Positions 5,165-32,887 of a stretch of 44,738 bases of DNA are shown here, in pieces. The position numbers were made by a program, and so were the translations under genes. The stretch's first letter is position 1. Each line of letters starts with the position of its first letter. Source of the stretch: a virus. The notes beneath the pieces are model-generated. The model was given only the letters and a program-made list of their open reading frames with translations, ran no database searches and was not told the DNA's origin. Location of the stretch: the IMG/VR virus record IMGVR_UViG_3300046721_000128, positions 1 through 44,738 of that record. One strand, written 5' to 3'.

Positions 5165-5823
5165 TGGAACGTCGGTACGCCGAACTCCGATACGACGCAG
5201 GTACCGATTCGACGGCCCCTCGTTTCTACGGAACGGCCATCAAGTACAACGTGCGCACCGCCATCGGAAATCCTAAGACCTGGGGGTTCTTCGAGGAGAT
5301 TGCGCCCGGTGCCGTCGACATGTCGCGCAACGACATTGCGATGCTCGTCAGTCACGACATGGACCGCGTCGTCAGTCGTCAGTCCGCAGGGACGCTCACC
5401 CTGGCCGATAGCACGGGCGGACTCGACGTCGAATCGACCCTTGACGACGATCTGTCGTATGTCCGCGATCTCAAGGCGAATCTCGCCAACAAGAACGTCA
5501 CGGGCATGTCGTTCGGCTTTCGCGTAAAGAAGGGTGGCGCCGACGTCACGGAACTGGACGACGGTTCCATGCTTCGCCGCGTCACGGCCCTCGAATTGTT
5601 CGAGGTTTCGACGACCCCTTTCCCTGCGTATACTTCTACCGACGCCACCATGCGCGACGTTCCGCTACTCGCTGAGCGCCGATCGGCATGGGAGACGAAG
5701 CAGGCCTCTGTGAACAGTCAGCCGGAGGCGGCAATCCAGACAGAATTCCGTAGGCGCGAACGTCACCTGCGTTATCTGGCCAGCCGCTACGGCATGGCTT
5801 TCGAGAGGGGCACCAATGCCTGA
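5164..5823 (+). CDS. Prohead maturation protease, HK97 type
   Basis: A 219-residue serine protease of the HK97 gp4/U35 family, which removes the scaffold (delta) domain from the capsid protein. Visible signatures are FYGTAIKYN near the N-terminus, His64 in LVSHDMDRV, Ser116 in VTGMSFGFRV, and a Glu pair in TALELFEVST. A clear TGGAGG precedes the ATG, which overlaps the portal stop (TAATG). The C-terminal 55 residues are charged and helical. Position between portal and capsid is canonical. Confidence 0.93.
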   Translation: MERRYAELRYDAGTDSTAPRFYGTAIKYNVRTAIGNPKTWGFFEEIAPGAVDMSRNDIAMLVSHDMDRVVSRQSAGTLTLADSTGGLDVESTLDDDLSYVRDLKANLANKNVTGMSFGFRVKKGGADVTELDDGSMLRRVTALELFEVSTTPFPAYTSTDATMRDVPLLAERRSAWETKQASVNSQPEAAIQTEFRRRERHLRYLASRYGMAFERGTNA

Positions 5824-7066
5824 GAGCATCAAGCGGTACATCGACCGGCGCGCTTCCAACTGGGAGGGCATGAAGGTTCTTCTCGACGCTCAGTCGACTC
5901 GTGACCTGACTGCGGAGGAAGAGGCTGAGTGGGACCGCCGCGAAGCCGAGATCGACGCTGACGGTAAGAGCATCGAGCGCATCGAGCGCGCCATGAAGCT
6001 CGAAGGCGTTGCGACGAGGCCGATCGGCGACATCGCTGGCGTCGATGTGACGACTCGCGAGGCTGACGAACTGCGCCAGTACGAAGAGGCGTTCATGGAC
6101 TACGCGCGCCGCGGCGAGCGCTGCTCTCCGGCGACGCGTGCGCTTCTGGAGTCGCGCTCTACGAATGGTCAGTCTGCGGGCGTCAACTCTGAGGGTGGCT
6201 ACACCGTTCCTCCGGGGTTCCTAGTCCGCATGACGGAGACGCTGAAGTCGTTCGGTGGGCTTATCAATCTCGCTGAGGTCATTCCGACTTCGTCCGGCAA
6301 CCCGCTTCAGTTCCCGACGCACAACGGGACGACTGAGGTTGGCGCCATCATCGGCGAAGCCGTTCAGGACACCGCGGTTGCGACCGCGTTCGGAACCAAG
6401 ACCCTGTCTGCGTTCACTTACACCTCGAACATCCTTCTGGCGTCGGTCGAGATCCTTCAGGACACCGCCTTCCCGCTCGACTCTTGGCTGCCGGCGCGTC
6501 TCGGTCAGCGCATCGGCCGCGCGCTCGCTGCGCACTTCGCCACGGGTGTCGGTACGACTCAGCCTGAGGGCCTGGCGACCAACGTGACGACTGGTGTCAC
6601 TGCCGCGTCGACGACCGCGTTCACGTACACCGAGCTGATCGACCTGATTCACTCGGTCGACCCCGCCTACCGCGGCTACGCCGGCGCCGGTCCGGACGCT
6701 CAGTCCGCGGCCAACCCGACGGGCTTCCTCGGCAACGACGCAATCTTCAAGTTCGCGCGCAAGCTGGTCGACTCGACCGGCCGGCCGCTGTGGGAGCCGT
6801 CTCTTCAGGCCGGTCGCCCGTCGCAGTTGCTCAACTACCCGGTCTACGTCGACCAGGGCTTCGCGTCGGCCATGACCACCGGCCAGAAGGTGCTGTTCTT
6901 CGGGAACTACAACCTGGGCTACATGGTTCGCCAGGTGCAGGGTGCCCAGCTCATGACGCTGCGCGAGCGTTACGCGGACTTCCGCCAGGTCGGCTACATG
7001 GCGTTCTCTCGCTGGGATGCCAAGCCCAACGACACCGCCGCTGTCCGCGTCCTCAAGCTGGCCTGA
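5816..7066 (+). CDS. Major capsid protein, HK97 fold
   Basis: A 416-residue capsid protein. Residues 1-110 are charged and helical (RRASNWEGMKVLLDAQ, TAEEEAEWDRREAEID), matching a delta scaffold domain. The HK97-fold body begins near NSEGGYTVPPGF and includes EVIPTSSGNPLQFPTHNG and a long C-terminal domain. The family is cleaved by the prohead protease just upstream; the cut is probably around residues 110-125 (inference). GAGAGGGG lies five bases before the ATG. Confidence 0.95.
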   Translation: MPESIKRYIDRRASNWEGMKVLLDAQSTRDLTAEEEAEWDRREAEIDADGKSIERIERAMKLEGVATRPIGDIAGVDVTTREADELRQYEEAFMDYARRGERCSPATRALLESRSTNGQSAGVNSEGGYTVPPGFLVRMTETLKSFGGLINLAEVIPTSSGNPLQFPTHNGTTEVGAIIGEAVQDTAVATAFGTKTLSAFTYTSNILLASVEILQDTAFPLDSWLPARLGQRIGRALAAHFATGVGTTQPEGLATNVTTGVTAASTTAFTYTELIDLIHSVDPAYRGYAGAGPDAQSAANPTGFLGNDAIFKFARKLVDSTGRPLWEPSLQAGRPSQLLNYPVYVDQGFASAMTTGQKVLFFGNYNLGYMVRQVQGAQLMTLRERYADFRQVGYMAFSRWDAKPNDTAAVRVLKLA

Positions 7067-7103: not shown

Positions 7104-7484
7104 ATGGCAGCTGGAAACAGCACGCTCGCCAGGAACGGCACTTCGTACACGTGCTCTGACGGTATGTCGGTTGTAGCGGATGCGCTCAGCCACGTGTCGA
7201 CTGCTCTTGGCGCAGGCGCCGGTAACGAGACCGGCTCTGTCGACCAGGGCAAGTCTGAGTCGGGCCGATTCAAGGTGACCGCGGCCAACGTCACCGGTTC
7301 GGTTGTGGTGACTATTCAGACGTCCCCCGACAACTCGACCTGGGTCACGGTCGGTTCGGCGACCGCCGGTCTGACGTCTGGCCAGTCGGCTTTCGTCTTC
7401 GGTGTTATCAGTCGGTACGTTCGTGTGTCGTGGAACGTCACGACCGGACCTGCTGACGTCACTGTCACCGCGGACCTGATCTGA
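7104..7484 (+). CDS. Putative head accessory or decoration protein
   Basis: A 126-residue beta-rich protein dominated by Thr, Ser, Val and Gly, with an Ig or discoidin-like pattern (GSVVVTIQTSPDNSTWVTVG, then RYVRVSWNVTT). It follows the capsid gene at a short distance with GGGAG before the ATG, the common position for decoration proteins that stabilise the shell. Strong expression and surface location are inferred. No catalytic residues are apparent. Confidence 0.65.
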   Translation: MAAGNSTLARNGTSYTCSDGMSVVADALSHVSTALGAGAGNETGSVDQGKSESGRFKVTAANVTGSVVVTIQTSPDNSTWVTVGSATAGLTSGQSAFVFGVISRYVRVSWNVTTGPADVTVTADLI

Positions 7485-7974: not shown

Positions 7975-8640
7975 ATGCCTGCGAACGTAGTCACGGCCAA
8001 GGGTCGTGAAATCATCGGTTTCCGCATGAAGGGAACCCCGTCGGCGGCCACTGAGCCGCTGAATGTGGGCTGGGGCAAGGGCGGTGTCGCCGGCGGTCCG
8101 TTCGTCGCCGCAGTGACCGACGTGGCCCCGTTTCAGGAGTCGACGGAGTCGCGCGTCGCGGGTACGTCGTCCGCGGTGACGACGGGAACGTTCGTCGACA
8201 CGTATCAGGTCGTCGGAACTATTACGTCGGCTGGCTCGCAGACGATCGCGGAAGTGCTGCTCTCCGATTCGACTACGAAGCCGTTCTCGACGACTGTCGC
8301 CTCCGGCACGGTCATCGGCTCGAACTCCGCTACCGGTATGACGGTCGCAGCTTCGTACACTCCGGCGAACAACACCTACATCCAGGTGCGGACCGAGGTC
8401 ATGCAGGTGACCGCCGGTTCTGGCTCGACGACCCTTACGGTTGCGCGCGGCGTGAATGGCTCGGCTGCCATCTCTACGGTGGCCGCGTCGGACGTCGTGA
8501 CGACGGGCAACCCGCCGACCGGTACGGGCACGTCGGCTCAGCAGGCTACGTCGAACATGTTCTTCCATTCCGACTTCACTGGTCTGGCGCTCTCGACTGG
8601 CGACTCGATTCAGTTCACGTTGCAGGTTCAGTTCGTCTGA
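7975..8640 (+). CDS. Beta-rich structural protein
   Basis: A 221-residue protein with almost only Ala, Gly, Ser, Thr and Val strands (TIAEVLLSDSTTKPFSTTVAS, then GSGSTTLTVARGVNGSAA). The stretch EVMQVTAGSGSTTLTVARG resembles motifs in phage fibre and decoration proteins. GGAGCAG precedes the ATG. Probably a virion component on the capsid or neck. A 12-bp inverted repeat follows the stop. Confidence 0.65.
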   Translation: MPANVVTAKGREIIGFRMKGTPSAATEPLNVGWGKGGVAGGPFVAAVTDVAPFQESTESRVAGTSSAVTTGTFVDTYQVVGTITSAGSQTIAEVLLSDSTTKPFSTTVASGTVIGSNSATGMTVAASYTPANNTYIQVRTEVMQVTAGSGSTTLTVARGVNGSAAISTVAASDVVTTGNPPTGTGTSAQQATSNMFFHSDFTGLALSTGDSIQFTLQVQFV

Positions 8641-8975: not shown

Positions 8976-9548
8976 ATGGCGCTGAGGCCGGGAAATCTGT
9001 TCACAGAGAATCAGGCATCGGTAGAAACGACTATCGATGATTGGGCTAGCTTCCTGGTGTCGTCGTCGTCGACTGTGCAGTCAACTACTCAGGCCTTGAG
9101 CGGTACTCATTCGATTAGGGCCACGTACAACGGCACGGCCAGTGACGTGATGGCGTCCATAACGACAACGGCATCGGTCCCTCAGGTTGCTGCCGCGATT
9201 CGCTACGATTACTGGTTTTGGGTATTCAGTCCACGCGCGGTGAGCTACGGGACGGTTGTCGACTGGTATCGAGCGTCCAACGTGACGTTTATTAGCACGA
9301 CTACGGGGACACTTACCAGTGTTCCGGCCAATGTGTGGACGCGTGTTGGATATCAGGATTACGCGCTTGGCACTCATACGTCGCCCGCGTTGGCGACGCA
9401 GGCGCGGACCTATATCAAGTGTTCGACGGGCCTTACGACAAGTGACCTGGTGTATTTCGATGACGCGTTTCTGGGTCAGAGATTGTTCACTGACCCCGTG
9501 ATGGCGCCTAGGTCTATGGCAACAATGATGCGCGCGCACAATTGGTAG
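8976..9548 (+). CDS. Jelly-roll or carbohydrate-binding-like structural protein
   Basis: A 190-residue protein whose pattern fits a galactose-binding or CBM-type jelly roll: GTHSIRATYNG, a central YDYWFWVFSP strand, VWTRVGYQDYAL and a final LVYFDDAFLGQR strand. Such modules in phages decorate capsids or fibres and may bind glycans; that role is inferred. It ends with a short tail (MATMMRAHNW). It belongs to a run of beta-sandwich genes between capsid and connector. Confidence 0.6.
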   Translation: MALRPGNLFTENQASVETTIDDWASFLVSSSSTVQSTTQALSGTHSIRATYNGTASDVMASITTTASVPQVAAAIRYDYWFWVFSPRAVSYGTVVDWYRASNVTFISTTTGTLTSVPANVWTRVGYQDYALGTHTSPALATQARTYIKCSTGLTTSDLVYFDDAFLGQRLFTDPVMAPRSMATMMRAHNW

Positions 9549-9557
9549 GGAGAGGCA

Positions 9558-10061
9558 ATGACGCTCTATATCGCTCACAATACGGCGCTTGACGCTACGA
9601 CCGCGTTCACGGGTGGCCAGTCGTATGCGACGGGCGCCAAGACTGCACTTCAGTTGCAGCTTCCGAGTAGTCAGGTCATCCGCATTGCTGAGATCGGCTG
9701 GTCTCAGGATGTGGCTACGGCTACGAGTACGCTGCTAGCGCTTCAGACGTCGAATACGGGAACCACTGACACAACGGCGCTCAGTACGACTCTCGTGAAG
9801 CCTCTCATCGACAACGATGCGCGCGGCTCTTCCTTGACGATGGCCACAACAGGTTCTTCGTACGGTATTGTCGCGGTCGGTACACGTACTGTCCTCCGCA
9901 ATCTTGAACAGCTTTACGTGCCGCAGGTCTACGTGAAGCAATGGCCTCTCGGTCAGTGGCCGATCGTCGGCAATGCTGCCGCTGAGACGTTCGTGTGCCT
10001 CAATGTCAATACGACTGCGACTGTGAACGCTATTTGCTGGATCGTGTGGGACGAAGCGTAA
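9558..10061 (+). CDS. Beta-rich structural protein
   Basis: A 167-residue protein with a good GGGAGAGG ribosome binding site. It is Thr/Ala-rich (ATATSTLLALQTSNTGTTDT) with strands such as VIRIAEIGWSQDV and a C-terminal NAICWIVWDEA strand. The layout is similar to small phage head-fibre or decoration proteins. No family is recognised with confidence. Confidence 0.6.
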   Translation: MTLYIAHNTALDATTAFTGGQSYATGAKTALQLQLPSSQVIRIAEIGWSQDVATATSTLLALQTSNTGTTDTTALSTTLVKPLIDNDARGSSLTMATTGSSYGIVAVGTRTVLRNLEQLYVPQVYVKQWPLGQWPIVGNAAAETFVCLNVNTTATVNAICWIVWDEA

Positions 10062-10073
10062 GCAGGTGAAGTA

Positions 10074-12056
10074 ATGGCACGTCTAGGCCGCGGACATCCG
10101 GCAAAGGCCTACGTGTTCATATCCCCTCAGAAGTCGGGGCCACTGAACGCGACGATGACGCTTTCTGTCGCCGTAAACGCGACTGAGGCGATGGTGAGGG
10201 GTATCAGTAGGCATCTGCCCTTGGCGAGTGTGTCGACGACTCGTTTCGACGTCCGGCAGGTGCGTCCGACGAAAAAGGCCACCGTCAGCGTCAGTCGGGC
10301 GATGATTCGCCGCGTCGGCAAGGTGCTGCTCAAGGTCATGACCCTGGTCGTCTTCATGGCCAAGATCAAGGCGCGGTTCGTCACGTTCACTGCGACAGTC
10401 ACGCTCGCCAGAGCCAGCGTCCGCCGTATTGGTCTCACGAGGGCCGACACGGTCTCTCTGGTGCGGTTCCGCGCACTTCGTGCCCAGCTCCTTAGGGCCC
10501 GCGCGGTGAGCCTCGTAGGTGCCCGTCAGCGCGCGCTCGCGATCCGTCGGCTTGACGTGATGACCGTCGGTCGCGCCATGGTCCGCCGGATCGCGGCGAC
10601 GAAGCTCGATACGGTCACCCTCAATGGCGCCTCGGTGCGCGCCAGGGTTCGGCTGATGACGCTCGCCGCGGTGGTCGCGCTCACCAGGTTCTCGACTCGC
10701 GCATCGACTCGCGTGCGCGTGTTCGTGGCGACCGTCACGCTCGCCGGCGCCAAGGTCCGGCAGGTCGGCCTGAGGCGCCTCGGCCAGGTGCTGACGACGC
10801 CGACCGTGATTCGCCGAACTGGCAAGCTGCGTACGGTAGTTGTGACTGCGACGGAGTTCCGCAGGAACGCCGCGGCGAAGGCCCTTCGAGTGCCGGTCGT
10901 GCTCAATGCGGCAAGTTCGCTGATCAAGCTCAAGAGGTTGACGCTCGCCGCGGTCGTCGTGCTGAATGCCCGCACGGCGAAGCGGATCTCGCATGCGGCG
11001 CGAGGTGTCTCTACCCTGGTCGCCCGTACGGTTCGGCAGCCGGCGCTGACCCGACGCGCGACGGTCGCTGTGGCGCGATTCAGGTCGCTGCGCACGGGCG
11101 TGGTCCGTCTCGCCGTGTCGACGACCGCGGTCGCGCGGCTTCGAGCTCTGGCGCCGGTCGGCAAGGTCGCTCAGGTCCACTTCGCCGGCGCGCACCGCGT
11201 GTTCCTCGGCGTCCGGCGCGCCGCGGTGGTCACGACTGCGCGCACCATGACGCGCGCCCTGGCTCGTACGCGCCTCGCGCAGGTGTCGACGGTCCGCGGC
11301 CTGCGCCGCGCGCTGGCCCGTACGACGCACGCCACCGCCGGCCTGACGGCTCGTACCGTCACGGCGACCGCCTACCACCAGGCATACCGTGCTGTCCTCT
11401 CTATAGGGCGCACAATGCGCCGCGGTCTGGGGGTCCGGCGAGCTGGCCAGGTGCTGACGTCGCCGATCATGGTTCGCAGTGTTCTGCGCCGACGCGCGGC
11501 GACGGTCGCGACGCTCGGGACGCGGTCGGTGAAGCGCGGCTACGCCTTGGCGAGGCTGGCTCTCGTCACGACGGTCGGTGCGCGCATCGCTCACCGGACG
11601 GTCGTCAAGGCCGCACTGGCCTCAATCGCCTTGACCGCGAAGCGAGTTCGCCGCATCTCGCGCACAACTCTCCGCGTCGTTGCGGTAGTTGGCGGCAAGC
11701 GGGTCGCGATCCGGTTGACGAACGCCACGCGCACGGCGACAAGCGTGATCTTGCGTGGCATGGATCGAGTGCTGCGTTTGCTGGCTCCGGGGCATTCGTC
11801 GCCGGGGACGTTGACGGGCCGAAAGGCGGATGCGTCCGCGGCGACGGGGCGCGCGTCAATGGGTGGAATGGTCGGCGGCAATGCGTCCCATGGTGCGGCT
11901 ATGATCGGCCGCAGTACGACGGGCGGTATCGCTGGAAATAGGGGCCTTGGTTCTGGCATGACCGGAGTGACTAACGTCGTGAACGGAGCGGTATCGATGT
12001 ACCGAGTAGTCAAGACGGCTCGTGTCAGTCCGAAGGGAAAGGTGACCCATGTATGA
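10074..12056 (+). CDS. Arg-rich protein of about 28 tandem 18-residue repeats
   Basis: A 660-residue protein unlike its neighbours. From about residue 25 to 575 it is a chain of degenerate units of roughly 18-20 residues, for example TVTLARASVRRIGLTRAD, with pattern basic-x-x-(A/T)-x-V-x-(L/T)-x-x-A-x-(V/M)-R-(R/Q)-(I/V). Fewer than about ten Asp/Glu occur against well over a hundred Arg/Lys, so the protein is extremely basic. The last 80 residues are a Gly/Ala/Ser-rich segment and a short basic end. The regular beta/basic alternation suggests a solenoid or fibre with one charged face. It sits between head accessory genes and the connector. Binding to packaged DNA, RNA or anionic wall polymers is inference. 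Confidence 0.8.
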   Translation: MARLGRGHPAKAYVFISPQKSGPLNATMTLSVAVNATEAMVRGISRHLPLASVSTTRFDVRQVRPTKKATVSVSRAMIRRVGKVLLKVMTLVVFMAKIKARFVTFTATVTLARASVRRIGLTRADTVSLVRFRALRAQLLRARAVSLVGARQRALAIRRLDVMTVGRAMVRRIAATKLDTVTLNGASVRARVRLMTLAAVVALTRFSTRASTRVRVFVATVTLAGAKVRQVGLRRLGQVLTTPTVIRRTGKLRTVVVTATEFRRNAAAKALRVPVVLNAASSLIKLKRLTLAAVVVLNARTAKRISHAARGVSTLVARTVRQPALTRRATVAVARFRSLRTGVVRLAVSTTAVARLRALAPVGKVAQVHFAGAHRVFLGVRRAAVVTTARTMTRALARTRLAQVSTVRGLRRALARTTHATAGLTARTVTATAYHQAYRAVLSIGRTMRRGLGVRRAGQVLTSPIMVRSVLRRRAATVATLGTRSVKRGYALARLALVTTVGARIAHRTVVKAALASIALTAKRVRRISRTTLRVVAVVGGKRVAIRLTNATRTATSVILRGMDRVLRLLAPGHSSPGTLTGRKADASAATGRASMGGMVGGNASHGAAMIGRSTTGGIAGNRGLGSGMTGVTNVVNGAVSMYRVVKTARVSPKGKVTHV

Positions 12057-12921
12057 CATCGGCGATGTAGTTCCGCTCAGTATCAACATTACTGACCCGA
12101 CCGGTGTTGCAGCCAATGCAGGTTCTGTGACTGTCACGATTACGATGCCGGACAACTCGGCACTGACGTCACCTCCTATCAGTCCCACGATCGTCGGGCA
12201 GTACGACTACGCCTATACCGCCGTGCAGGCTGGTCGACATGATGTGCGGTGGGTTGCGACTGGCGCCAACGCGGGTGCCTATCAAGATGTGTTCGAGGTC
12301 CGTGCTACCGACTCCTTTATCTCTTTGACGGAGATGAAAGATTACCTGAACATCCCCCTCGATAAGACGACGTGGGATGGCGAACTGCGCGACGCTTCCT
12401 CGGCCGCGTGCGGGATCATCGAGTTCCTCGTCGGTCCGGTGCTTCGTCGCCAGATCATCGAGTACTACGACGGGGGCGACGGTTACACGTGGAAGATCAT
12501 GCTTCAGCGAGTGCCGATCATCTCGATTGACGAAATAGTCGAGACATGGGGCACGGGCATCTCGAACACGCTCGTTAATGTCGCCATGCCGGACACTACC
12601 GGTTCGACGATCGGCTACACCTACGATGCGATCACGGGCCAGGTAGTGCGTCGCTCTCTTGGCTGGCCGTACCCGTTTCCGTTTGGCATCAAGAACGTGA
12701 AGTTCACGTACACGGTTGGTCGCACGTCGACCCCGGGGAACATCAACACGGGCGCTAAGGAACTCATCGGGCATATTTGGCGCCAGTCGCAGTTGAACTC
12801 TGAGGGGCGCCGGCCGCGGGTCGCCAGGCCTGAGCCGGTCACCGTGATTCTTGGGTACGCGATCCCGAACCGCGTGCTGGAAATGCTTCAGGCCACGCCG
12901 CGCACTCCGACCGTAGGATGA
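12049..12921 (+). CDS. Head-tail connector (gp6-like) with N-terminal Ig-like domain
   Basis: A 290-residue protein. Residues 1-90 form an Ig-like beta sandwich (GDVVPLSINITDPTG to AGRHDVRWVATGANAG). From about residue 92 it follows the gp6-like connector family: FISLTEMKDYLNIPLDKTTW, then helices and LLRRQ-type segments. The connector ring completes the portal after packaging. It overlaps the repeat gene by eight bases, and GAAGGGAAAGGTG precedes the ATG. The Ig fusion is unusual and may expose a binding surface at the neck. Confidence 0.75.
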   Translation: MYDIGDVVPLSINITDPTGVAANAGSVTVTITMPDNSALTSPPISPTIVGQYDYAYTAVQAGRHDVRWVATGANAGAYQDVFEVRATDSFISLTEMKDYLNIPLDKTTWDGELRDASSAACGIIEFLVGPVLRRQIIEYYDGGDGYTWKIMLQRVPIISIDEIVETWGTGISNTLVNVAMPDTTGSTIGYTYDAITGQVVRRSLGWPYPFPFGIKNVKFTYTVGRTSTPGNINTGAKELIGHIWRQSQLNSEGRRPRVARPEPVTVILGYAIPNRVLEMLQATPRTPTVG

Positions 12922-15632: not shown

Positions 15633-15784
15633 GTAGGAAGCTTGACGAGGAGATGGGGGAATACGTGCCTGTGTTCCTCCATCTTTTTGGATTGCGACCC
15701 GACGCTTTGACCTATGACGACTGGCTTGGGTGTAAGAGCTTTGCGGATGAGTGGATCAAGGCACAAAGGGAGGGTGGTGTCTGA
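15276..15784 (+). CDS. Tail assembly chaperone GT, -1 frameshift product (predicted)
   Basis: The -1 frame is open through the end of G to a TGA at 15782-15784. Its last part encodes a globular sequence (GRKLDEEMGEYVPVFLHLFG, then LRPDALTYDDWLG) typical of the T domain. This part has no well-placed start: the ATG at 15653 abuts GAGGAG with no spacer. A -1 slip near the end of G would yield a GT fusion, as in lambda-like tails. No canonical XXXYYYZ heptamer is obvious in the last 100 bases; candidates are the CCC runs near 15590 and 15600. The exact slip point is unknown. Confidence 0.65.
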
Positions 15785-18700
15785 TGGCGGTAACGGATCT
15801 CGCATTCAAGCTCTTCGCCATTGACGAAGCGTCGCCGGTATTCGATCGCGTGGCCGTGAAGGCGGAAGAGGCTGGGGCCGCGGCGGAGACTGCCGGTAAG
15901 AAGCACATGGGTGCCGCTGCGGCTATCGGCAAGTTCGCGAGTGTGGGTAGTGCCGCGGCAATCCTGGTCGGCGGTGCTTCGCTGAAGATGGCTGCGGAGT
16001 TCCAGGAAGGGTTGACGACCCTCGTCACGGGCGCCGGCGAGTCTGAGAAGAATCTCAAGATGGTCGGCGACGGTATTAAGAAGCTGAGCGCCTCGACGGG
16101 CAACTCGACTAAAGAGTTGACCGACGGTATGTACATGATTGAGTCGGCGGGCTATCACGGCAAGGCCGGCTTGGACGTACTTGCGAAGGCCGCTCAGGGT
16201 GCGAAGGTCGGTAATGCGCAGCTCGGGGACGTCGCCAACGGTGTGACGACCCTGATGACCGACTACAAGGAAGCGAACATCAACGCGACGCAGGCCACGA
16301 ACGGCCTGGTGTCCGCGGTGTCGCAGGGCAAGACGCACATGCAGGATCTCGCGGTGTCTCTCGCCGCGGTGGCGCCGATCGCGTCCACGGTCCATGTGAG
16401 TATGTCGGAGATGCTGGGCGCCATGGCGGAGCTGACGTCTCGCGGCGTACCTGCGGCGCAGGCGTCGACCATGCTCAAGCAGACGCTCATCAACTTGAAG
16501 TCGCCCTCGAAGATCGCCGTAACGACGCTTCACGATTTGGGGCTCAAGGGTACTCAGGTCTCGAATATGCTCGGTAAGAAGGGGCTTGCGGCCACCTTCA
16601 CATTTCTCAATGGCGTCTTCAAAAAGAACCACGTCAGCTCCGCTGATGCAGTCACCGACCTGAAGAACATGGTCGGCGGATCTAAGAACCTCGCGGGCGC
16701 AATGATCCTGTCTGGCAAGGGTCTTGAGGGTTTCCAAGAGAAGACGAAAAAGATTACCGAAGCTACCGACAAGAGTAAGAAGGGTATCGAGGGCTGGGCT
16801 GAAGTACAAAAGGACTTCAACTTCAAGCTTGACCACTTCAAGGCGTCGGTCCAGGTTGCCGCCATCAGCCTCGGTCAACAGCTACTGCCCATCTTCACGA
16901 AGCTTACCGATAAGATATCCCCGTTCTTGCCGCTCATCATCAAGGTTGTTGCCGCACTGCTCGCCATGGCGGTAGTTGCGAAGATAGTCATCATGGTGGC
17001 TAAGTTCGTTGATATAATGATCCTCTTCGGCAAGGCTCTCCGCTTCGCCGCTATCGGCATGGGGATTCTCGACGGAGAGATGGCGTTGAACCCGTTCGTG
17101 GCCATCGCCATTGCGGTCATCGCCCTTGGTACGGCTATCTATTTCGTCGCCACTAAGACGCAGTTCTTCCAGACCATTTGGCACGCCGTGTGGGGCGCCG
17201 TATCGACTGCGGGTAAGGCGGTATGGTCCGCCATCAAGGTGGGCCTTAACGGGATCAATATCGCGCTCAGGGCCGTTGGTTCTTGGGCTACTTGGCTATG
17301 GGTCCACGGTATTAAGCCGGTGTTCGACGCCATAGCGATAGGCGCAAAGATCTTTGCTGGTGTCATCGGCGCTGTCCTAGTTGTGCCAATCTACCTACTC
17401 ATCAAGTATGTTCTTGCGCCAGTGTTCACGTGGCTATGGAACAGCGTCATCAAGCCGACGTTCAATGGTATAGCGACTATAGCCAAGTGGCTCTACGCTA
17501 ACGTCGTCAAGCCGACTGTGGCTTTGATAGTCACTAGTGTCAGGGCCTTCGGAACGGCGGCAACGTGGCTGTACAACAACGCGATCTCTCCGGCGTTCCA
17601 CGGCATAGCGACCGTGGCCAAGTGGCTCTACGCCAACGTCATCAAGCCGCAACTCTCGGCGATCGTGACGACTATCAAGGATCTGGGCAAGTGGGGGACG
17701 TGGCTGTATAACAACGCGATATCGCCCGCGTTCCGTGGCATTGCGACCGTGGCTAAGTGGCTGTACAACAACGGCATCAAGCCCGTGTTCGCGCAGATGG
17801 TCAACGAAGTAAAGACGGTCGGCAAGTGGGGGCAATGGCTATGGACGAACGCCTTGTCGCCCGCATTCAAGCTGATCTCTAGAGGCGCATCCGCGCTCAA
17901 GGATGCGTTCATTGGCGCCTTCAAGCAGATGGAAAAGGGGATCGAGGTACCTGTCTCGTTCACCATCAACACGGTGCTTGGCGGCATGGCCAGAACCTGG
18001 AACTCCATCATCTCGAAGGTGGGGCTGAAGTCGCTGAGCCTGCCTGTGCCGCACGTAGGGTTCGCGACCGGCGGCTACGTGCAAGGTGCGGGCGGTCCGA
18101 CTGACGACAAGATTCCGGCGATGCTCTCGCATGGCGAGTACGTCATCCCCGCGCACGTCGTCAAGGGCAACGTAGGGTTCTTCGACTCCCTCGTCGGCAA
18201 GGGGCAGCGCATGGGCGCCTCCGCTCCGTTCAACGGTGGTGGCGCGAACGGCATCCCTGGATTCTCCGGTCTGCCCAACCCGATCAAGGCGGTTGTGGGG
18301 GCTGCCAAGTCGGTCGGGGGTGCCATCGCGAGTGCTGGCAAGTGGGTGCTCGGCACGCTGACGCGGGACGTCGTCGGCAAGGTTCTAGAGGGGCCGATCA
18401 AGGCGCTCATCAGCCACATTCCTGGTGGCGGGGTCGTCGGCGACTTCCTCAAGGCGATGGTTCCGAAGGCGCTGTCCGGCCTGATGGATCTGTTCATGAA
18501 AAAGAACGATGCCGCGGTGTCGTCGTTCGGCGGAGGCGCCGGCGGACGCATTCCGTCGGGGCAGCACAAGGCGGTCATCATGGCGGCCCTGGCAGCGGCT
18601 CACGTGCCCCCTCCTGGGTCGCTGGCGAACTGGCTCACCGGAATGAATACGCTTATCACGCGCGAGTCAGGCTGGAACGCCGGCGCCATCAATCGCACCG

Positions 18701-19164
18701 ACTCCAACGCGAAGGCGGGCCATCCGTCACAGGGGCTCGCGCAGACGATCCCCGGCACCTTCAACGCCTACGTGCCTGCGTCGCTGCGGCACCTTGGCAT
18801 CCTGAATCCGGTCGCCAACGTGGCCGCGGCCATTCGGTACATCGTCAGCCGGTACGGCAACATCACCAATGTGCAGCAGGCCTTCGGGAAGACGCCCAAG
18901 GGCTATTGGGCCGGCGGTCTCACGGCGCCTGGGTGGTCGATGTTCGGCGAGAACGGTCCCGAGCTGGGCTACACGTCCGGCGGTACGCGCATCCTGAGCG
19001 CTCAGCGTACGAGCAAGATGCTCGCGGGCGTTGGTGCCGGCGCCGGCGGTCATCACGGAACGGTGGAACTGATCGTCAAGAACGAGAGCGGCAAGGAGAT
19101 CGAGCGCAAGCTTGTCACTCTGAAGTCCAAGCGCGGCGGTCGCAAGTTCGATTGGGAGCGCTGA
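15784..19164 (+). CDS. Tape measure protein with lytic transglycosylase domain
   Basis: A 1126-residue protein that sets tail length. The N-terminal third is coiled and Ala/Lys/Thr-rich (TP901-type). Hydrophobic segments occur near residues 365-420, 437-456 and 527-548. Residues about 500-690 hold tandem Trp repeats of the type WLYNNAISPAF and KWLYANVIKP in units of about 45 residues. Near 930-1045 is a lysozyme-fold transglycosylase: ITRESGWNAGAIN with catalytic Glu961 and SQGLAQTIPGTFNAY. That domain would cut peptidoglycan during DNA entry. ATG 15784 overlaps the chaperone stop, with AGGGAGGG upstream. The earlier in-frame ATG at 15751 is rejected. Confidence 0.92.
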   Translation: MAVTDLAFKLFAIDEASPVFDRVAVKAEEAGAAAETAGKKHMGAAAAIGKFASVGSAAAILVGGASLKMAAEFQEGLTTLVTGAGESEKNLKMVGDGIKKLSASTGNSTKELTDGMYMIESAGYHGKAGLDVLAKAAQGAKVGNAQLGDVANGVTTLMTDYKEANINATQATNGLVSAVSQGKTHMQDLAVSLAAVAPIASTVHVSMSEMLGAMAELTSRGVPAAQASTMLKQTLINLKSPSKIAVTTLHDLGLKGTQVSNMLGKKGLAATFTFLNGVFKKNHVSSADAVTDLKNMVGGSKNLAGAMILSGKGLEGFQEKTKKITEATDKSKKGIEGWAEVQKDFNFKLDHFKASVQVAAISLGQQLLPIFTKLTDKISPFLPLIIKVVAALLAMAVVAKIVIMVAKFVDIMILFGKALRFAAIGMGILDGEMALNPFVAIAIAVIALGTAIYFVATKTQFFQTIWHAVWGAVSTAGKAVWSAIKVGLNGINIALRAVGSWATWLWVHGIKPVFDAIAIGAKIFAGVIGAVLVVPIYLLIKYVLAPVFTWLWNSVIKPTFNGIATIAKWLYANVVKPTVALIVTSVRAFGTAATWLYNNAISPAFHGIATVAKWLYANVIKPQLSAIVTTIKDLGKWGTWLYNNAISPAFRGIATVAKWLYNNGIKPVFAQMVNEVKTVGKWGQWLWTNALSPAFKLISRGASALKDAFIGAFKQMEKGIEVPVSFTINTVLGGMARTWNSIISKVGLKSLSLPVPHVGFATGGYVQGAGGPTDDKIPAMLSHGEYVIPAHVVKGNVGFFDSLVGKGQRMGASAPFNGGGANGIPGFSGLPNPIKAVVGAAKSVGGAIASAGKWVLGTLTRDVVGKVLEGPIKALISHIPGGGVVGDFLKAMVPKALSGLMDLFMKKNDAAVSSFGGGAGGRIPSGQHKAVIMAALAAAHVPPPGSLANWLTGMNTLITRESGWNAGAINRTDSNAKAGHPSQGLAQTIPGTFNAYVPASLRHLGILNPVANVAAAIRYIVSRYGNITNVQQAFGKTPKGYWAGGLTAPGWSMFGENGPELGYTSGGTRILSAQRTSKMLAGVGAGAGGHHGTVELIVKNESGKEIERKLVTLKSKRGGRKFDWER

Positions 19165-31873: not shown

Positions 31874-32082
31874 GAACAGCCGGAGACTACGCACTCATGC
31901 ACGCGAACGGCATGAAGTGGGCCGACGTCGTAGCCGAGATCCGGCGAGAAGCGACAGAGCCTATCGGCATCATCACGAAGGTACTCACGAAGGAGACCCG
32001 CAATGAAGCTCAAGGTGCTAGCAACATTCGGCGTTGCTGCAATGATCAGCCTTGCATGGGGCACGACCTCACGAGCGGCTGA
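31870..32082 (+). CDS. Small helical protein (tentative)
   Basis: A 70-residue reading frame (ATG 31870 overlapping the previous stop). The first 48 residues (RTAGDYALMHANGMKWADVV, then AEIRREA) look protein-like. The last 22 residues overlap the start of the next gene by 80 bases and look like out-of-frame sequence. It may be real but with a long overlap. Confidence 0.4.
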   Translation: MRTAGDYALMHANGMKWADVVAEIRREATEPIGIITKVLTKETRNEAQGASNIRRCCNDQPCMGHDLTSG

Positions 32083-32887
32083 CACGTTCCCGTCGCAGGA
32101 CGCGTGCCACGTCACCAACAACGCGTCGCCCGCCGGGAATTGCGGCTCGTTCACGCTGCTCGACCGCGAGACGTTCAACGCGGTGCAGGTACCGGTGGGC
32201 GGGTTCTCGAACTGCGCCGGCGACGGCAACTTCAAGTGCGCCGGCCTCAAGACGAAGTACCCGTCGTACTACAACACGCTAGGCGCCTACCCCGACGGCT
32301 GGCCCGACACCGCCGGCTCTGGCGCCGACGGCAACTCAGGTCCCGTGCCTGGCACATACCAGCCCTCGAAGGCCGCATCGGTCATCCTGGTCGGCACCGA
32401 CGGACAGATGCGCGTCCACATGTCGTACGCGTCGGGCCACAACTCGGTCGCCGCGATGGTGCCACTCCCCTGCATGAACCTGCGGTACGGCAAGTTCACG
32501 GAACGCGTCAAGATCTCCAACACGTCGGACCGCTTCAAGATGGCGCACCTGCGCTACTCGCCCAACGAAGTCGACTACCCGGAGGCCGGCTCCAACTTCG
32601 CGTCGGACCCGGTATCCGAGTTCACGCACGGCTTCAAAGAGTCAGGCGCGGACGTCGGCCCGAACGCCGACTGGACTTCGTGGCACACGTACTCGACGGA
32701 GATCGTCCCGAATCAGATCAGGTTCTACCTCGACGGCAAGTTGGTGTCGACGGTCAACGCCGACTTCCCTGACTCGACCGACTGGATACTCCAGAATGAG
32801 TCGGCACTCGGCATCAGCTCAGTGTCCGGGGCGACGTCGGTGAACGTCGACACGTCGTGGCTGACCTGCTACAAGTACAGCGGCTGA
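32003..32887 (+). CDS. Secreted glycoside hydrolase family 16-like enzyme
   Basis: A 294-residue protein with a signal peptide (1-25, ending TSRAA). A concanavalin-type beta sandwich follows. The GH16 catalytic pattern ExDxxE is present as NEVDYPEAG (Glu189, Asp191, Glu194), and downstream WHTYSTEIVPNQIRFYLDGK is the strand usual in this family. GH16 enzymes cut beta-glucans, galactans or related extracellular polysaccharides; the substrate is unknown. It lies in the early region, not the tail cluster, so it is probably secreted by the infected cell. Confidence 0.8.
   Translation: MKLKVLATFGVAAMISLAWGTTSRAADTFPSQDACHVTNNASPAGNCGSFTLLDRETFNAVQVPVGGFSNCAGDGNFKCAGLKTKYPSYYNTLGAYPDGWPDTAGSGADGNSGPVPGTYQPSKAASVILVGTDGQMRVHMSYASGHNSVAAMVPLPCMNLRYGKFTERVKISNTSDRFKMAHLRYSPNEVDYPEAGSNFASDPVSEFTHGFKESGADVGPNADWTSWHTYSTEIVPNQIRFYLDGKLVSTVNADFPDSTDWILQNESALGISSVSGATSVNVDTSWLTCYKYSG

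Follow-up and report, generated by a model that had tools for sequence, protein, structure and literature searches.

An arginine-rich protein of degenerate 18-residue repeats as a probable divergent member of a phage accessory-fibre cassette family and a candidate surface rod

The closest known counterparts of the protein studied here are phage proteins that, like it, carry basic 18-residue arrays or similar predicted solenoids, namely proteins of uncultured Caudovirales phages (BFVD A0A516M8C1, A0A6J7VQK1 and A0A6J7X0B7) and UOF82047.1 (MW202796.1), none of which has an assigned function. UOF82047.1 lies in the same cassette as the present 660-residue protein, with the gene order 'tail collar fiber protein', repeat protein, small gene, 'tail fiber', and the 'tail collar fiber protein' is homologous (E 1.5e-9) to the product of the companion gene at 7975 in the present genome. 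UOF82047.1 is, however, Lys/Thr/Ser-rich and more regular, whereas the 660-residue protein is rich in Arg and its repeats are far more degenerate. The cultured Rhizobium phage RHph_TM16 encodes a modular protein with basic 18-residue arrays (QIG66716.1; L372:9188-14173), which, like our protein, has a basic array, here C-terminal, with a K/R peak at 18.55 aa and 20-residue units, and whose gene is directly downstream of a member of the 7975 family. It differs in its length (1661 aa), its further β-rich domains and its Thr/Val/Lys-rich array; the DUF4082 in this entry is the depositor's label, with no confirmation from Pfam. GP4 fibre I gp80 (PF23140, PDB 8jou) represents the family to which companion gene 7975 connects via a relative at locus L290, and is thus the counterpart of the neighbouring gene and not of the repeat protein. 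Curli CsgA, LpxD/GlmU, tapirin, ice-binding proteins and phi29 gp12 weakly resemble the predicted models in fold, with no significant match and no sequence relation, and the 6-residue period is absent here. Modular surface proteins of phages that bear a repeat stalk are a known kind, to which this protein would belong; no description of the repeat family was found in open-access papers, and the family, its spacing grammar and its cassette appear to be undescribed.

The window, the whole stretch of DNA analysed, is an entire virus record (IMGVR_UViG_3300046721_000128, 44,738 bases) and belongs to a tailed phage; among its genes are those for the terminase, portal, protease, capsid, tail tube, tape measure and endolysin. 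The repeat gene is found between the capsid and tail-tube genes, a position that would fit the virion-protein role proposed in the sequence-only reading of this DNA. The features that matter here are the following.

5816..7066, + strand: major capsid protein (phrog_10, E 1e-65)
7104..7484, + strand: probable capsid cement protein, Bbp16-like (PDB 3j4u, BPP-1 cementing protein, E 0.002; PF21190, E 6e-4)
7975..8640, + strand: companion gene 1, fibre-like, GP4 fibre I / tail collar fibre family, 221 aa (homologues beside repeat genes; relative at L290)
8976..9548, + strand: 190-aa protein, carbohydrate-binding-like (phrog_24476, phosphodiesterase, E 8.7e-12)
9558..10061, + strand: companion gene 2, 167 aa, directly upstream of the repeat gene (homologue near the L217 repeat gene)
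10074..12056, + strand: basic 18-residue-repeat protein, 660 aa, pI 12 (open reading frame, composition, period, codon usage)
10074..10205, + strand: N-terminal basic lead-in, residues 1-44, MARLGRGHP..., resembling MARFGRAFP of L217 (sequence comparison)
10206..11798, + strand: repeat array, residues ~45-575 (18-residue units plus 20-residue units)
11799..12053, + strand: Gly/Ala/Ser-rich C-terminal tail, residues 576-660 (low AlphaFold2 confidence)
10083..11594, - strand: antisense open frame of 503 aa, a composition shadow rather than a gene
12049..12921, + strand: downstream gene, probable neck protein, its start overlapping the repeat gene by 8 bases

The reading frame at 10074-12056 runs on the + strand from an ATG, preceded by an AGGTGA-like ribosome site, to a stop codon at 12054-12056. 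Its GC3 is 0.79 and its synonymous codon score is 0.267 (0.241 for the tape measure gene, 0.378 for the capsid gene); codon usage is phage-like, and the frame is a genuine gene. The antisense frame was rejected as a gene, being a shadow of the composition of the repeat gene. The encoded protein (70.2 kDa, computed pI 12.0) is dominated by Ala (16.1%), Arg (15.3%), Val (14.2%), Thr (11.7%) and Leu (9.7%), and its 125 Lys and Arg residues against only 8 Asp and Glu give a net charge of +117. Identity as a tape measure protein was rejected because a separate tape measure gene is present at 15751-19164, and the weak tape-measure PHROG matches of relatives were dismissed as compositional.

Fourier analysis of the protein gave a single dominant peak at 18.55-18.6 aa (power 18.2 for K/R and 11.9 for hydropathy), and self-trained repeat segmentation scored 338, compared with at most 297 in 20 composition-preserving shuffles. 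Some 26-30 units lie between residues ~45 and 575, leaving the C-terminal ~85 residues outside the repeats. Unit length is not uniform: most units have 18 residues and some have 20 (beginning, for example, at residues 85, 177, 197 and 271), and the autocorrelation peaks at 18, 20, 38, 56, 74, 92 and 112 are sums of these two lengths (z of 6.2 at lag 18, 5.5 at 74, 5.4 at 92, 4.0 at 56 and 3.4 at 38). A 6-residue period was not found, as autocorrelation at lag 6 is negative and identity is at baseline, and a left-handed β-helix of hexapeptide type was rejected on this ground. Within the unit, K/R occupy position 13 (0.73 of units) and position 17 (0.42 of units), with a further K/R column at position 1, and are missing from positions 4, 6, 7 and 8. 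Hydrophobic residues mark columns 5, 7 and 15, and small residues mark columns 3, 6, 8 and 16. These fixed columns, together with a rule of two-residue indels, argue for an ordered repeat independently of structure prediction.

At the DNA level the repeats are worn. Tandem Repeats Finder detected no array in the gene, only one 34-bp stretch with a score of 38; unit pairs share on average 21% of amino acids and 37% of nucleotides, and identical residues in different units use the same codon 41% of the time (expected, 36%). Two claims of the sequence-only reading are confirmed: an Arg-rich, almost acid-free protein of about 28 degenerate 18-residue repeats, and repeats that are regular in protein but worn in DNA, in keeping with an old divergence. 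Its alternation of Arg with small hydrophobic residues held in part: the K/R columns fall at positions 13, 17 and 1 and form no simple alternation.

The repeat has no model in Pfam, PHROGs or NCBIfam, as the absence of a recognised family in the earlier reading had suggested. A PDB sequence match, 9e5c, was rejected as an acidic low-complexity repeat. Whole-protein tblastn gave no matches, to which low-complexity masking probably contributed; neither the repeat protein nor the capsid protein nor the 12049 gene led to related loci when used as a query, and a scan with a strict Arg-type repeat pattern gave 0 matches. Relatives were obtained from IMG/VR with a coding pattern for a tandem 18-residue unit containing A-T-hydrophobic-T and with a second, Lys-containing version, a lead that came from similar phage repeats and was then confirmed by the scan itself. 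Scoring of open reading frames after these scans left about a dozen independent arrays, of the ATVTTTATIVKSVGKAL type (L005, L014, L020, L029, L046, L059, L195, L261 and L284), the ATLSFTGALxKR type (L205, L217 and L219) and the ATLTTAGALTKQTARAL type (L053), and an Arg-rich array, 742 aa in full, at L041. The relatives carry a net charge of +18 to +67, with far more K/R than D/E in their arrays. Arrays across the family have 8 units at the shortest and 28 or more at the longest, and the units mostly run 18-18-20 or 18-18-18-20 residues (a super-period of 56 or 74 residues).

The 660-residue protein shares with this family the 18-residue units with periodic 20-residue units, seen in its autocorrelation, and the K/R at positions 13 and 17 with few acids, while the K/R column at position 1 is its own. 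The L041 profile scored 59.3 on it (z 19.9), a score reached by 0 of 1000 shuffles and 0 of 2000 column permutations, and the best z on 140 composition-matched reading frames was 7.3; L041 itself is joined to the canonical family with a z of 27. Unit profiles built independently from the protein and from the family align at one register (column-permutation p 7.5e-4), and their common K/R columns correlate at 0.53-0.68. Canonical profiles built without L041 barely detect the protein (z 2-4), which makes it a distant member whose inclusion rests on L041, the spacing grammar and the cassette. These sequence comparisons show it as a divergent Arg-rich member of a virus-encoded basic repeat family, with L041 as the nearest relative. 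A GTDB scan returned no family member among the matches listed, only simple low-complexity genes, and the family is apparently, if provisionally, restricted to viruses. A subset of relatives have conserved C-terminal ends, VKFRTLFIDKDLNI; a C-terminal R[VI]xKT motif shared by the 660-residue protein, L217 and L205 was absent from 29 other members.

The cassette provides evidence that is independent of any repeat search. Homologues of gene 7975-8640, which is 1.4 kb upstream of the repeat gene, adjoin most repeat genes, the best of them (49% identity, E 4e-58) beside the L041 array. An IMG/VR scan with this family alone gave 307 relatives, from which 80 loci were kept, several of them near-identical and the set thus partly non-independent. 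A basic open reading frame with a K/R period of 18.0-19.2 within 4.5 kb downstream of the 7975 homologue was present in 45 of the 80 loci, and in 39 of the 57 with more than 2.5 kb of downstream flank, compared with 4 of 669 other reading frames, all four on the minus strand. The L290 relative of 7975 matches PF23140 (GP4 fibre I) at E 2.6e-5, just below the curated cut-off, and PDB 8jou at E 0.0016. Companion gene 2 aligns over its full length with a homologue near the L217 array (BLASTP, 33%, E 3e-15). Downstream, the 12049 gene has the layout of the Ig-like BppU_N/adaptor genes that lie 3' of relatives, with a MAFFT identity of 23% and a non-significant hhalign result; the downstream genes of L029, L046 and L195 align mutually, and those of L029 and L046 have BppU_N-like plus head-tail adaptor domains. 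The L041 array and a small Ig-like gene are closely followed, in L288 (5611-7359, minus strand), by a gene for a GDSL-like esterase that has a fibre-like N-terminus fused to it.

Several relatives carry further domains. The L205 array includes a Laminin_G_3 domain (E 6e-17), which is complete, lectin-like and located inside the array rather than at its end (L205:5409-7775). The N-terminal domain of the L298 protein matches phrog_2106, a minor tail protein (E 4e-9), and in the RHph_TM16 protein the N-terminal domain matches proteins annotated as minor tail, while a different part resembles a tail fibre. A different repeat, PTPAxVTVTGGxPxV, occurs in the minor tail protein gp102 of Mycobacterium prophage prophiGD102-1 (L377:2880-4100), attached to the same β domain as in the RHph_TM16 protein.

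AlphaFold2 run on L059 with 12 relatives predicted two strands per 18-residue unit in a 6-2-6-4 pattern, with a pLDDT of 70-83 over most of the repeats, and the two-residue insertions of the 20-residue units map to the predicted 4-residue loop. The model of the 660-residue protein is mostly β, with confidence near 80 only at residues 110-180 and a pTM of 0.40. Foldseek gave no significant match in the PDB for either protein (best E 0.27 for L059 and 1.8 for the 660-residue protein); the weak matches were mainly β-solenoids for L059 and mixed for the 660-residue protein, and the best viral structure matches were uncharacterised phage proteins. AlphaFold2 is known to give confident but unrealistic β-solenoids for repeats, stacked like charges being a warning sign (PMC11795689), and because of this documented over-prediction the β-solenoid is treated here as a prediction only. 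The solenoid with a positive face suggested by the earlier reading may still be called the best prediction, set against a poor model of the 660-residue protein itself and the lack of a significant structural match.

Taken together, the results favour, at a probability of roughly 55%, a divergent Arg-rich member of the accessory-fibre cassette family that forms a surface β-solenoid rod whose Lys/Arg stripes hold a polyanion. The protein would be a structural component outside the head or neck, in which one unit is predicted to make one coil of two short strands with turns of 2 and of 4 residues (the latter 6 residues in the 20-residue units), so that 28 coils at ~4.8 Å would build a rod of ~13 nm. 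Stacking would align the Lys and Arg into one or two stripes of positive charge with no acids to balance them, and these would keep the rod bound to a polyanion. An unpaired Lys/Arg stripe on each coil would need an anionic partner, which suits lipopolysaccharide, teichoic or capsular polymers, and a host envelope polymer of this sort is the most likely candidate. Since the family occurs in quite different phages, one with a Gram-negative (Rhizobium) host, a general polyanion is a better guess than teichoic acid. The rod may give a loose first attachment, with specificity supplied by neighbouring lectin-like proteins. A broader version, in which virus-specific solenoid rods with unbalanced Lys/Arg ladders are general electrostatic adhesins for receptor-independent first contact, and the 660-residue protein is an extreme Arg form with an extra charge column, is put forward only tentatively.

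The main rival is a surface glue or stalk, whose positive stripes attach to the acidic capsid or neck of the phage itself and anchor neighbouring fibres instead of contacting the host. The cement- and fibre-like neighbours and the anchor-like appearance of the conserved C-terminal ends in some relatives speak for it, but the variable array length and the large lectin-like inserts better suit an exposed stalk, and we regard it as rather unlikely. Arrays that are intrinsically disordered, flexible Ala/Thr/Arg linkers, their solenoid an AlphaFold2 artefact, would be consistent with the documented bias of the program (PMC11795689) and with the low confidence for the 660-residue protein. Strict 18/20 spacing that persists at ~20% identity, the hydrophobic and small-residue columns, and indels of exactly two residues confined to one loop are difficult to reconcile with a linker, which leaves this explanation doubtful. 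Less likely again is an internal, protamine-like polycation packaged with the genome that neutralizes or condenses DNA or is ejected with it. The charge of +117, the pI of 12, the near absence of acids and a gene in the head-neck region are all as expected of such a protein, yet its charge is confined to preferred columns rather than spread evenly, and the relatives are much less charged, follow a fibre-family gene and carry lectin-like, minor-tail and fibre-like domains. The earlier suggestion that the protein neutralizes packaged DNA or coats RNA is disfavoured by these same fusions and by the fibre-I, collar-fibre and cement-like genes beside the arrays. The idea that the repeat is due to chance or is an artefact of composition in a GC-rich gene, to which the low-complexity composition and the open 503-residue antisense frame might point, is refuted by the shuffle, column-permutation, composition-matched and gene-neighbour controls and has a negligible probability.

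If the repeat proteins are charged surface rods, as in the favoured reading, they are candidates for the reversible step with which adsorption begins and which is little understood. The fibre-family gene of the cassette is carried by hundreds of metagenomic phages, and where the flank is long enough, most loci have a basic repeat gene after it. The cultured phage RHph_TM16 offers a workable model in which the surface-rod reading is directly testable, and the family supplies natural and divergent cases against which the disputed reality of predicted β-solenoids can be tested.

Among four close pairs of repeat genes, dN/dS was 0.28 (purifying) in one, and three had too few changes for the ratio to be informative. 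In the pairs L316/L317 and L324/L325, 11 of 13 and 18 of 24 substitutions, small counts, change the amino acid, and these genes possibly encode fast-evolving surface proteins. Elsewhere in the window, seven matches to ACNNTNAC (Thr-x-Thr coding) occur within ~220 bases at 2660-2890, in the reading frame 2391-2915 beside the terminase gene, and a glycosyl hydrolase family 16 match (E 7e-5) is located at 32003-32887, an unusual place for it in the non-structural right arm.
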